A stretch of 64,000 nucleotides of DNA from Pseudomonas putida. GTDB taxonomy: Bacteria; Pseudomonadota; Gammaproteobacteria; Pseudomonadales; Pseudomonadaceae. This document shows positions 17,513 to 21,486 of this stretch, in pieces (the stretch's first letter is position 1; the number at the start of each line of letters is the position of its first letter). The stretch covers positions 124,001-188,000 of the forward strand of contig NZ_CP113097.1 of the NCBI RefSeq assembly GCF_026625125.1, given 5' to 3'. Below the pieces are notes generated by a model. It worked only from the letters and a program-made list of their open reading frames with translations. It was not told where the DNA came from and searched no databases. Position numbers and translations under genes: made by a program.

Positions 17513-17569
17513 GTGACGCCCACATGTACAGCACAGTTTCAGTAAGGGTGCTGTACATGTGGGCGTCAC
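17513..17569. repeat. 22-bp perfect inverted repeat
   Basis: Bases 17513-17534 and 17548-17569 are exact reverse complements (22 bp), separated by a 13-base loop. The stem begins GTGACGCCCAC and contains the palindromic core TGTACA. It starts 35 bp after the MFS stop codon. There is no T-run after it. It could be a strong terminator, but it is much longer than others in this window and it marks the edge of the AT-rich accessory patch. Confidence 0.75.
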
Positions 17570-17934: not shown

Positions 17935-18784
17935 ATGGCTCAAAACACACTCAACGATAATTCAACGGGTGATGTTGTCATCACTCCCGGCTCGTGCCGA
18001 GGCATTGGCGCTTGCGCATCACCAGCGGGTTGGTACGTACAGCCAGGCACATGAAGGTCGACGTGCGCAGCTTGATGCTCACTTCGCAAAACAGTCGAAA
18101 GGCCTGGCACAGGCGCTTCAGGATGAGCTCGTGTGGCCTTGGCGTTCGACGCCGCGATTGTGGAAGGCCAGCCCCCGCGCACCTGGACGCCACTGGTGGC
18201 ACCTGGATCGGAGTTACTGGGACCGACGCCTTTGCCCGAGGCTCCGTTACTGCCGGGCATTCTTCCGGGGGGCGTCGACTGATCCAGTGGGGCCAAGTCT
18301 TGAAATACTTCCAGGCGAGAATCCTGGAGAGACAGGGGCCATAATTCCTGGGTTCGGTCGAGAGGACGATCTACCAGCGCCGGGCCTGGTTAATAACGAG
18401 CCAGCAGAAGAGACTGAAACTGGAGCGTATGGTGATTTGGAGCGCAGAAGTATAAGAGACGATATGGATGTTGATCATATACCTGCTCAAGGCGCGATAA
18501 AACTTTGGCTTGAGAATAATGTTCCGTATTTGTCACCCTATCAAGTCAGAGCGCTTACCAGGCGAGCCCCTGCTGTCGTTATACCTACACATGTGCATAG
18601 GCGGTACAGTGAGACATAGGGTGGACGGAACACCAAAGCGAAGCAAAAGCTAGACGCTGCTGACCTGTTTGAGGCTGTGCGTAGCAACGTCGAGGCGCTA
18701 AGGCCAGGTCTTCCGACTGAGCGAGTTGAAGGAATCAAGGCGGAGCTTACTTATTTGCTTAAAAAATTTATTGAAATGGTGTGA
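17935..18784 (+). pseudogene. Broken HNH-nuclease bacteriocin (S-type pyocin-like)
   Basis: The gene starts at ATG 17935 behind a strong AAGGAG. It reads MAQNTLNDNSTGDVVIT and then loses frame. Joining frames gives one coherent product of about 282 residues: frame changes fit an extra C at 17986-17988, a lost base near 18125-18130 (GAGCT) and an extra G in the six-G run 18267-18272. The final part reads DDMDVDHIPAQGAIKLW and PTHVHRRYSET, a TAG stop at 18617-18619, then GGRNTKAKQKLDAADLFEAV to a stop at 18782. The stop replaces the tyrosine expected in the nuclease motif ETYGGRN. The N-terminus is also short for a bacteriocin, lacking receptor-binding and translocation regions. Raw-read errors could mimic single indels. 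Confidence 0.82.
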
Positions 18785-18786
18785 TC

Positions 18787-19260
18787 ATGACAAGAATTGT
18801 AGAAGTCGAGCATTGGTTGAAGTCCCTAGGTGAAACTCATGCCACGTTGCTTGGTCTTGGACTTGATCCAGATCTCCCTTTCATAAAACTCTATTCTGGT
18901 GCAACAGAGCTGTACCTTGAGCCAGCGCCTGGGGTTAGCTATAGACTTGATACGGAAACTAAAGTATTGCAAGCGGTGATTGTGACAATTATCAGGCGCG
19001 TTGAGCGTGAGCCAGAGTTTAAGGATCTTCTTTCGCAACCCTATGGTTGTCGGGATAAGGATGCTGTTCGGGCGACATGGGGAAATCCCATTAGTTCACG
19101 AGGTCCTATGGCGATGCCGCAACCCATAGGCAAAACGGGTGGATGGGATATTTATGAGCTTTCCTCCCAGGGGTTTGCGAATGTCGAATTAACATATAAT
19201 TATGCTACGGATTTTCAAGTTTCCGGGGTTGTCTTGAGGGCTAAGGAAGATGAAGCTTGA
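18787..19260 (+). CDS. Probable immunity protein, DUF6392-like
   Basis: A protein of 157 residues starting at ATG 18787, two bases after the toxin pseudogene. It opens MTRIVEVEHWLKSLGETHATLLGLGL and continues with LYLEPAPGVSYRLDTETK. This resembles the DUF6392 proteins found beside pseudomonad bacteriocin nucleases. The C-terminal part contains GGWDIYELSSQGFANVELTYN. The gene is markedly AT-rich like the toxin, and is intact. Position directly after an HNH toxin supports an immunity role; this is inference. It overlaps the next gene by 11 bp. Confidence 0.68.
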   Translation: MTRIVEVEHWLKSLGETHATLLGLGLDPDLPFIKLYSGATELYLEPAPGVSYRLDTETKVLQAVIVTIIRRVEREPEFKDLLSQPYGCRDKDAVRATWGNPISSRGPMAMPQPIGKTGGWDIYELSSQGFANVELTYNYATDFQVSGVVLRAKEDEA

Positions 19261-20329
19261 GAAACGATTGCAAGACTACGATGAGCATTCGTTCTTATTG
19301 CTCGTCAAAAATATCTGGGATGTCGAAGGCAAGAGGTCTGAACATAACTCATTCATCGCCCATTTCGATCAGATAATCGGCCACCCCGCCGGCAGCGACC
19401 TCCTGTTCTACTCAACCGCTGACGAAACCGGCAGCATCAACTCCCCTGACCACATTGTTGCAACGATAAAATCCTGGCAAAAAGGCCGCGCAGCCTTCAA
19501 AGGCCAGACCTTGCAACCACCACCGGTTCGCCAAACGCTGACCCCCGCGCAGCGAGCCAGCCAGTCTTCCACCCGCAACCTGGAAAAAGTGCGCAAACTG
19601 GTAGCTGAGATCCAGGCAGCCGAGCAGCAGGGCAAACTGAAGCTGACCGCGTTGGAACAGCAATTGGCTCGCAGCCCAGGCGTCGGCACGCCTGCGCAGC
19701 AACTGGCTGCCAGCCTCGCCGCGCTGCGTGCCCTGGAACTGGCCCAGCATCAAGCCAAGGCCGCCGTCGACCAGCTCAAGCGCTTGCAGATGTCAGTCAA
19801 GTTTGCACTCGATGGCGCAAAGCGCGACGCCACCAGCCCGTTTCTAAACGCTGCAATCCAGGCCGTCGTGCTGCGTGAAATCACCGCAGGTAGCCAGCGT
19901 CATGCCGCGGCCTTGGCTACGGCCCAGGCGCGTCATCCCGCCTTATACGGCCGTGGCGTGAAGCTGATCGAAAGCCTGGAAGCACGTATCGCCCAGTTGG
20001 CCAAGGCCACGGCGACCAGCCCGGGCCATGGGCCTTTGACGTTAAAGACCGCGGCCCATGCAGCAAGCCTGCATCCTGCATTGCTGACAGCGCAAGGCTT
20101 GAGCCGTGAAGTAGCCCAACAGCAGCATCATCTGATCAAGACCTTTCGTTCCGCTGTAGCGGAACTGGATTGGCAGGCAACGTCGCTGCAGGGCGATCAC
20201 CCCGGTACGTATGCGGATGTTGTCGAGTTCGTGTTAAGTACCCCCAGCGACGATCCGCGCTTTGCCGTAACGGTGCCGCTGGTTGAAATGCTCGACAGCG
20301 AGCGGATGGACTGGGCAGCTTTAGGGTAG
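19250..20329 (+). CDS. Colicin/pyocin-type immunity domain fused to a long helical tail
   Basis: A protein of 359 residues. Residues 1-86 match the colicin E/pyocin DNase immunity family: KRLQDYDEHSFLLLVKNIW, then HPAGSDLLFY (45-54) and NSPDHIVATIKSWQ, the helices that bind the DNase. Free immunity proteins end at about this length. Here the frame continues for about 270 residues rich in alanine, leucine and glutamine, predicted mostly helical with coiled-coil character. I recognise no domain in the tail. The first 120 bases are AT-rich and the rest is as GC-rich as the core genome, so the gene looks chimeric. It is the second immunity gene beside a dead toxin. Confidence 0.75.
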   Translation: MKLEKRLQDYDEHSFLLLVKNIWDVEGKRSEHNSFIAHFDQIIGHPAGSDLLFYSTADETGSINSPDHIVATIKSWQKGRAAFKGQTLQPPPVRQTLTPAQRASQSSTRNLEKVRKLVAEIQAAEQQGKLKLTALEQQLARSPGVGTPAQQLAASLAALRALELAQHQAKAAVDQLKRLQMSVKFALDGAKRDATSPFLNAAIQAVVLREITAGSQRHAAALATAQARHPALYGRGVKLIESLEARIAQLAKATATSPGHGPLTLKTAAHAASLHPALLTAQGLSREVAQQQHHLIKTFRSAVAELDWQATSLQGDHPGTYADVVEFVLSTPSDDPRFAVTVPLVEMLDSERMDWAALG

Positions 20330-20487: not shown

Positions 20488-21486
20488 ATGAAACTGAAGC
20501 GTTTGATGGCGGCCCTCACCTTTGCCGCCGCTGGCGTTGCAACCGCCAACGCGGTAGCCGCCGTCGACCCTGCGATCCCGACCTACACCAAGACCACCGG
20601 TGTTTCGGGCAACCTCTCCAGCGTCGGTTCCGACACCCTCGCGAACCTCATGACCCTGTGGGCCGAGGCCTACAAGAAGGAATATCCGAACGTCAACATC
20701 CAGATCCAGGCTGCCGGCTCCTCCACCGCGCCACCCGCGCTGACCGAAGGCACCGCCAACCTTGGTCCGATGAGCCGCAAGATGAAGGACGTCGAGCTGC
20801 AGGCCTTCGAGCAGAAGTACGGCTACAAGCCGACCGCCATCCCGGTCGCTGTCGACGCCCTGGCCGTATTCGTGCACAAGGACAACCCGATCAAGGGCCT
20901 GACCATGGCTCAGGTCGACGCGATCTTCTCTTCCACTCGCCTGTGCGGTGCCAAGGCCGACGTCAAGACCTGGGGCGACCTGGGCGTGACTGGCGACCTG
21001 GCCAACAAGCCAGTGCAGCTGTTCGGTCGTAACTCGGTATCGGGTACCTACGGCTACTTCAAGGAAGAGGCCCTGTGCAAAGGTGACTTCAAGCCTAACG
21101 TCAACGAACAGCCAGGCTCGGCGTCGGTCGTGCAGTCGATCAGCTCCTCGTTGAACGGCATCGGCTACTCGGGTATCGGCTACAAGACTGCCAGCGTCAA
21201 GACCGTAGCCCTGGCCAAGAAAGAAGGCGGCGAGTTCATCGAAGACAACGAGGCCAATGCCCTGAACGGCACCTACCCGCTGTCGCGCTTCCTGTACGTC
21301 TACGTCAACAAGGCCCCGAACAAGCCGCTGGCCCCGCTGGAAGCTGAGTTCGTCAAACTGGTGCTGTCGCAGGCCGGGCAGCAGGTCGTGGTGAAGGACG
21401 GCTACATTCCGTTGCCATCGAAAGTGGTCGACAAGACCCTCGCTGACCTGGGCCTGTCCCACGCCGGTAACGTTGCAAAAAAGTAA
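20488..21486 (+). CDS. pstS: Phosphate ABC transporter, periplasmic phosphate-binding protein
   Basis: A protein of 332 residues. The signal peptide is [25 protein letters not shown]. The mature protein has phosphate-binding loops including [18 protein letters not shown] and [12 protein letters not shown]. It captures phosphate in the periplasm and passes it to PstCA. The start follows AGGAGCAAGGC. It has its own Pho box and is separated from pstC by a terminator and a second Pho box, so it can be expressed alone at high level. Confidence 0.96.

Follow-up and report, generated by a model that had tools for sequence, protein, structure and literature searches.

A truncated copy from a conserved Pseudomonas family that joins immunity and translocation domains, intact members of which are encoded with pyocins carrying a degenerate inner DNase

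We analysed a stretch of 64,000 nucleotides of Pseudomonas putida (NCBI RefSeq assembly GCF_026625125.1, contig NZ_CP113097.1, positions 124,001 to 188,000; the whole of it is referred to here as the window), and within it the gene at 19250-20329, the product of which begins with a DNase-immunity (Im) domain. This open reading frame (ORF) is a 3′-deleted member of a conserved Pseudomonas family in which the Im domain is followed by a helical bundle and a translocation domain (T-domain) including the IMT domain (Pyocin_S), mostly without a nuclease. Intact members stand beside a pyocin with an inner DNase domain that lacks its metal-binding histidines. The existence of the family, the truncation of the window copy and the inactivity of the DNase are, in our view, practically certain. 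The best explanation, which the sequence comparisons favour on balance, is a bacteriocin made of two proteins, in which the fusion would be the second subunit and would attach to the dead DNase through its Im domain. The observation holds up, and it points to something of greater interest than a chimera peculiar to one strain.

The gene at issue is composed as follows, with locus L006 of Pseudomonas sp. 10-1B as the intact reference:

19250-20329, plus strand: truncated Im, helical bundle and T-domain fusion; an ORF beginning with ATG, 359 amino acids (intact relatives about 505)
19259-19501, plus strand: Im domain, residues 4-84 (PF01320), from the profile match, the PDB relatives and the fold predicted for the intact relative L006
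19544-20011, plus strand: helical bundle, equivalent to residues 101-256 of the L006 fusion, from which the coordinates were transferred by alignment
20021-20326, plus strand: first two fifths of a colicin-type T-domain, its Pyocin_S (IMT) part deleted; the junction was read by eye

The immunity domain that an earlier note on this DNA had placed at the N-terminus is indeed present: residues 4-84 match Colicin_Pyocin (PF01320) with 57.2 bits (cut-off 21.2; E 1.8e-15), resemble Im9, Im2 and Im7 in sequence, and match 28 distinct PDB sequences (best E 2.2e-11). The 270-residue tail matches no Pfam or NCBIfam family at cut-off in a library scan, so that its description as unassignable was fair from the sequence alone; by way of its relatives, however, it can be assigned as bacteriocin-derived. 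It had been called coiled-coil-like, but is not coiled coil only: it comprises a helical bundle and the beginning of a translocation domain, roughly two fifths of it. The bacteriocin-derived material is that part of the translocation domain together with the helical segment preceding it, and the part of the bundle equivalent to L006 residues 90-215 is specific to the fusion family. Residues 216-505 of the intact form match ordinary pyocins; a search for the tail in bacteriocins is a check that the note had proposed. The tail being an unknown effector is ruled out by the T-domain fold and by the matches of residues 216-340 to seven of nine ordinary pyocins, a biased sample in which seven of the nine loci were chosen because the fusion profile matched them. 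Run-on of the immunity frame into an adjacent core gene is likewise ruled out; the next gene (20488-21486) is separate, and homologues share the same tail.

Intact members of the family are about 485-525 residues long (approximately 505), with PF01320 first and PF06958 (Pyocin_S) last; in the L006 fusion the latter occupies residues 357-498 at 80.9 bits. Both families occur together in 40 of 44 matches of the protein search, 43 of the 44 covering at least 97% of the query, and in 41 of 47 matches of the profile search, the 8000 candidates with the most shared words having been scored in both. The predicted fold of the intact L006 fusion consists of the Im domain, helices and a complete colicin T-domain. 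The Im domain and the family-specific bundle take the place of the N-terminal receptor-binding part, and the 505-residue form stops at the T-domain, without a C-terminal cytotoxic domain. The databases list these proteins as "S-type pyocin domain-containing protein" or "bacteriocin immunity protein", names which would both misdescribe the fusion if its role is as proposed here. In three loci (L055, L060 and L063) the fusion runs on into a truncated DNase that lacks the metal-binding His pair of the C-terminus, an indication that this passenger protein formerly had a nuclease. A truncated DNase piece after the fusion is also found in L070 (7567-7923), there as a separate ORF.

At E ≤ 1e-125 the fusion profile (alignment A3) finds the same fusion in 32 of 298 Pseudomonas genomes, a count that takes in the truncated copies of the window lineage. 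A one-strain accident is thereby ruled out; the proposal of a chimera, or of an immunity protein with a tail, came close in that the tail is bacteriocin-derived, but the fusion is an old and conserved one. Spread through the whole order can be dismissed, the fusion being found in two of 293 genomes of the wider order at E 1e-60, both of the genus Pseudomonas. A plasmid-borne module is excluded as well, with zero plasmid records at E 1e-20.

The intact fusion closes a bacteriocin operon in which a pyocin of about 860 residues is followed by one or more immunity genes and then by the fusion. From its Gly-rich N-terminus the pyocin continues with long helices, a divergent Pyocin_S domain, a colicin-type DNase at approximately 506-634, a Pro-rich linker and a terminal toxin; in a structure model of it (mean pLDDT, the predicted local distance difference test score, 54.4) only the inner DNase and the terminal toxin are usable. 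In clade A, for example in L006, the order is MFS gene, pyocin, DUF6392 gene, fusion and pstS, and the terminal toxin matches zero Pfam families above cut-off. The fusions of clade B (L049-L071) are 31-34% identical to that of L006 and lie at other chromosomal sites, the fusion again being last; here, what comes after the inner DNase and linker is a DUF6392-type toxin or else a second, live DNase, which is accompanied by an ordinary Im gene (about 91 residues). A terminal DNase is in frame in 13 of the 21 clade B pyocins with an inner domain and in 0 of 11 from clade A. The Pyocin_S domain scores 24.5-29.6 bits in three clade A partner pyocins and 46.7-51.0 in four of clade B, and 53.8-80.9 bits in five clade A-like fusions and 54.5-54.7 in two of clade B (an ordinary pyocin, 100.5); the gap between pyocin and fusion is thus small in clade B. 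On the right flank of several clade B loci (for example L049, L051, L052, L053, L054 and L071) we noticed a recurring downstream protein end, HSELV-EIA-EPNY-AALAVLK. Because the same protein, presumably a thiol peroxidase, recurs there, clade B operons share a chromosomal slot, other than the pstS slot of clade A.

The inner DNase is dead throughout. We take the numbering, the exosite range (72-98), the roles of the HNH residues and the standing of helix II as specificity helix to be those of ColE9/Im9; the PDB entries found include E9-Im9 complexes with the mutants R54A, N75A, F86A, K97A, V34A, E41A, D51A, Y54F and Y55F. The metal-ligand positions 102, 127 and 131 are non-His in all 32 inner DNases, and are His in 16 of 16 terminal DNases and 32 of 32 ordinary DNases of the genus. 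The inner-domain counts leave out L013 (partial inner domain), L075 (same contig as L012), and L018 and L027 (window lineage, no inner domain); the 16 terminal DNases do not count incomplete DNase pieces from L013, L062 and L073, L069 (internal stop) is left out of the 35 fusions, and 32 of 33 ordinary DNase-Im loci were scored, L117 having given no Im. The DNase domain that has no other immunity gene serving it is the dead one in 32 of 32 cases, and the fusion Im does not stand beside an intact cognate DNase.

The dead domain and the fusion occur together. A profile of inner domain plus linker (alignment A2, from which L007 was left out, its frame breaking after the inner domain) finds the full module in 27 of 298 Pseudomonas genomes at E ≤ 1e-90, and all 27 have a fusion on the same contig, 754-2490 bp away. 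Five genomes have the fusion only: G112 has a partial inner domain, G215 (window lineage) the linker and toxin only, and G000, G155 and G245 no inner module there. Fragments below these thresholds are found in G159 (pieces of both) and G128 (part of the fusion, without a full module), while G107 contains part of the inner module and no fusion match.

Both partners are under purifying selection, as judged from pairwise ratios of nonsynonymous to synonymous substitution (dN/dS). The medians are rough values. The whole fusion has 0.19 in clade A and 0.20 in clade B, its T-domain has 0.19 and 0.24, and the dead DNase has 0.135 and 0.164; pairs were limited to dS 0.05-1.5, leaving 28 per clade for the whole fusion and 24 and 131 for the inner domain. 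The presumed interface differs between the domain classes. In terminal DNases the exosite, the face that binds the Im, is variable, with a mean identity of 0.50 vs 0.68 and 0.67 elsewhere in the domain, whereas in clade B inner domains it is conserved (0.85 vs 0.64 and 0.63); by conservation it ranks 7th of 104 windows in the latter and 98th in the former. In helix II of the Im domain, clade B fusions share an identity of 0.72 and ordinary Ims one of 0.27, the values for helix I being 0.69 and 0.68. Trp92 of the DNase is found in 32 of 32 inner and 0 of 16 terminal domains, and Trp23 of the Im in 33 of 35 fusions and 0 of 20 ordinary Ims; neither occurs in the 32 ordinary DNase-Im pairs of the genus. 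The clade B pattern fits a joint with one fixed partner.

The Im domain could instead belong to a true immunity protein with a localising tail, still neutralising the DNase bacteriocins of competitors; the T/IMT domain would then put the Im where such toxins cross the envelope, or would compete for the import route. The Im fold and the hot-spot helix are retained in the fusions (D50 in 35 of 35, F53 in 34 of 35), bacteriocin producers need immunity, and the Im part is still in frame in the window lineage. We nevertheless consider this unlikely, since the adjoining DNase is dead and the live terminal DNases have an ordinary 91-residue Im of their own, the constant helix II of clade B fits one fixed partner better than many attackers, and a cytoplasmic immunity protein would need no complete T-domain.

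Several observations weigh against docking and a two-subunit bacteriocin. The co-occurrence of module and fusion has a Fisher p of 1e-33 that carries no correction for phylogeny, and most dS values are near saturation (median >1), which makes the dN/dS values rough. Clade A does not repeat the pattern of clade B: its inner-domain exosite (0.69 vs 0.68 and 0.70 elsewhere) gives no contrast and ranks 64th of the 104 windows, and its Im helix II identity is 0.48. Distances between clade A inner domains and their Ims correlate with r 0.58, below the coil (0.92) and the IMT domain (0.91), and two clade A Im variants stand opposite much the same inner exosite. Arg54, a contact in ColE9, is replaced by an acidic residue in 27 of 32 inner domains. 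Charges complement each other less well here than they do in ordinary pairs, with a median charge of -4 for the fusion Im and -8 for the ordinary Im, and of +2, +1 and +3 for the exosites of clade A inner, clade B inner and terminal DNases, respectively. Furthermore, the pyocin itself retains an IMT domain, which leaves no obvious need for another.

With these points counted, docking of the fusion Im on the dead inner DNase is plausible and, from the sequence patterns, we think it rather likely. In such a bacteriocin the Im domain, which would formerly have neutralised the now-dead DNase, would act as a plug on that domain, and the docked fusion would be carried along by the N-terminal part of the pyocin. 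The fusion would amount to a pyocin-like protein whose receptor-binding part was swapped for an Im plug; it would bring its IMT domain beside the terminal toxin and aid passage across the inner membrane, producer protection being left to the separate immunity gene. That the IMT domain is supplied in trans we judge to be evenly poised. The wider proposal, that a toxin-antidote pair became a structural joint in a two-subunit bacteriocin with its translocator in trans and a live warhead that is freely swapped, is put forward tentatively, at somewhat below an even chance. Where the passenger itself ends in a dead nuclease, as in a few lineages, that end might in turn accept a further passenger. 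The coupling and conservation data would fit equally well a chaperone or release factor that holds the long pyocin, by way of the dead DNase, folded or releasable inside the producer and is itself not delivered; such a protein has no need of a complete T-domain like that of imported nuclease bacteriocins, and we regard this as improbable.

The live end of the pyocin appears to be exchangeable. The shift from AT-rich to core-like composition inside the Im domain, to which the earlier note had drawn attention, is borne out by GC content in 100-base steps: values lie at 0.37-0.57 from -900 to +100 bases relative to the fusion start and rise to 0.58-0.70 in the 700 bases that follow. Low GC from approximately -900 to +100 bases around the fusion start is seen in the window, L006, L008 and L010. 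In clade A, residues 1-15 of the fusion have an identity of 0.81 among loci of toxin type 1, 0.51 among those of type 2 and 0.44 across the two, the corresponding values for residues 46-60 being 0.81, 0.67 and 0.75; the first 45 Im residues tend to track the cassette type. From these comparisons a toxin probably moves together with its immunity gene as one cassette, the right-hand crossover of clade A falling within the Im domain, and such exchange would explain the composition shift at the fusion start. Across 13 loci, distances of the terminal DNase scarcely track those of the inner domain (r 0.19), whereas distances of the fusion parts do (r 0.62-0.77), which speaks for the two-subunit reading; those of the N-terminal part of the pyocin do so as well (r 0.82).

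Cassette exchange brings in one more explanation, namely two conserved recombination arms, a left one of dead DNase and linker and a right one formed by the fusion, between which toxin/immunity cassettes can be exchanged, the fusion having no role in delivery. The AT-rich cassette does sit between the two arms, with clade A Im residues 1-45 tending to follow its type, and orphan cassettes lie between pyocin and fusion in several loci. An arm, however, requires no upkeep at the protein level over 505 residues, and the T-domain, far from the cassette, has a dN/dS of about 0.19-0.24; in clade B, moreover, the low-GC stretch stops before or near the fusion start. This explanation is accordingly given little credence, and the two-subunit bacteriocin is still preferred. 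Arrays of extra immunity genes and toxin C-terminal fragments, at 5219-6971 in L017 and between pyocin and fusion in L057, L059, L062, L067 and L073, are like the orphan cassettes of polymorphic toxins.

The remainder of the window locus is made up of the following features:

17935-18781, plus strand: wrecked pyocin gene, frame-shifted, with a stop inside the terminal toxin at 18617-18619
18350-19350, plus strand: AT-rich exchangeable cassette, made up of what remains of the terminal toxin, the DUF6392 gene and the initial part of the Im domain
18781-19260, plus strand: DUF6392-type gene, probable immunity gene of the terminal toxin, overlapping the fusion start
20488-21486, plus strand: downstream neighbour, the right border of clade A loci; we take it to encode the phosphate-binding protein PstS, a name assigned by eye, as was that of the MFS gene

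The window protein is incomplete, since intact relatives run approximately 145 residues further, into the Pyocin_S domain absent here; side by side with L006 (by eye), a 3′ segment has been lost up to near the original stop. Two relatives of 361 residues, P0001 (L018 in P. putida HAI-2) and P0002, end at the same place. The window and HAI-2 copies differ at 10 sites (six codons synonymous, four not) and by one 6-base gap, and, measured against its closest relatives, the window copy is short of a single in-frame unit of 6 bases, hence two residues, towards the end of the Im domain. The pyocin remnant (coordinates are those of L001 plus 17749) keeps only the equivalents of L006 pyocin residues 1-21, 79-126 and 642-857, with 22-78 and 127-641 gone; the partner DNase is therefore absent from the window locus. 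By its T/IMT domain the truncated window copy does not qualify as an S-type pyocin. Only the DUF6392 gene looks intact, at 78% identity to the L006 gene, although its match to PF19929 (20.5 bits) is under the cut-off of 25.9. The window locus is most likely a decayed weapon with retained immunity, in a lineage where the pyocin would have lost its docking domain and the fusion its Pyocin_S part.

A few further features were noted. Thirty-five bases after the MFS gene of the window, a perfect 22-base inverted repeat with a 13-base loop (17513-17569; by eye) is perhaps a terminator. Between the MFS gene and the pyocin, a second DUF6392-type gene lies on the minus strand in L006 (2853-3700), L009 (2781-3601) and L014 (3088-3378), followed in L006 and L009 by a small ORF. 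Outside the window, the same genome (G000, contig C1) has further pyocin/Im loci near 308468-310008, 1016834-1018210 and 4759786-4761245, among them an ordinary pyocin of about 730 residues that has Pyocin_S and an HNH DNase together with an Im.

The pairing of Im and DNase serves as a model of very tight binding between proteins, and the crossing of the inner membrane by nuclease bacteriocins is only partly understood. An Im joined to an IMT domain and paired with a dead DNase would allow a test of the IMT domain in trans; the joint, if true, would explain why tandem pyocins keep a nuclease that is unable to cut.

The hybrid pyocins PsdH1 and PsdH2 were reportedly described by Ghequire and De Mot in 2014. 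They have two nuclease modules, the additional DNase without a functional HNH, and two downstream immunity modules (PMC5358913, PMC5536347). This layout, compared by description, is found in the 13 partner operons with a terminal DNase and not in the window, where the pyocin is gutted; in the accessible parts of these papers there is no description of the second immunity module as a docking partner or of its fusion to a T-domain. The terminal ends in our set are live HNH DNases and the DUF6392 type, none being identified as S3-like. Passage of the pyocin G nuclease through the inner membrane requires the IMT domain, and a legend (Fig. 1D) lists Colicin_Pyocin among the Pfam domains co-occurring with IMT (Pyocin_S, PF06958); the accessible parts of that paper, on the same IMT domain, give no architecture, partner or function for the combination (PMC9040868). 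An Im-T-domain fusion as constant partner, and the docking idea, were not found in the accessible parts of the literature searched, including PMC9040868, PMC5536347, PMC5358913 and PMC12927319. Within that scope, the tandem pyocin with a dead DNase is already known and the fusion partner was not found in print.

The known DNase immunity proteins Im2, Im7, Im9, ImS2 and ImAP41 (PF01320) share the sequence family, four-helix fold and hot-spot helix with the fusion Im, but are normally separate proteins of about 85-95 residues beside a live DNase; here the domain is fused to a bundle and T-domain beside a dead one. The S-type nuclease pyocins share with fusion residues 216-505 a helical segment and the IMT domain, while in the fusion their receptor-binding part is replaced by the Im and their nuclease end is absent or a His-less remnant.
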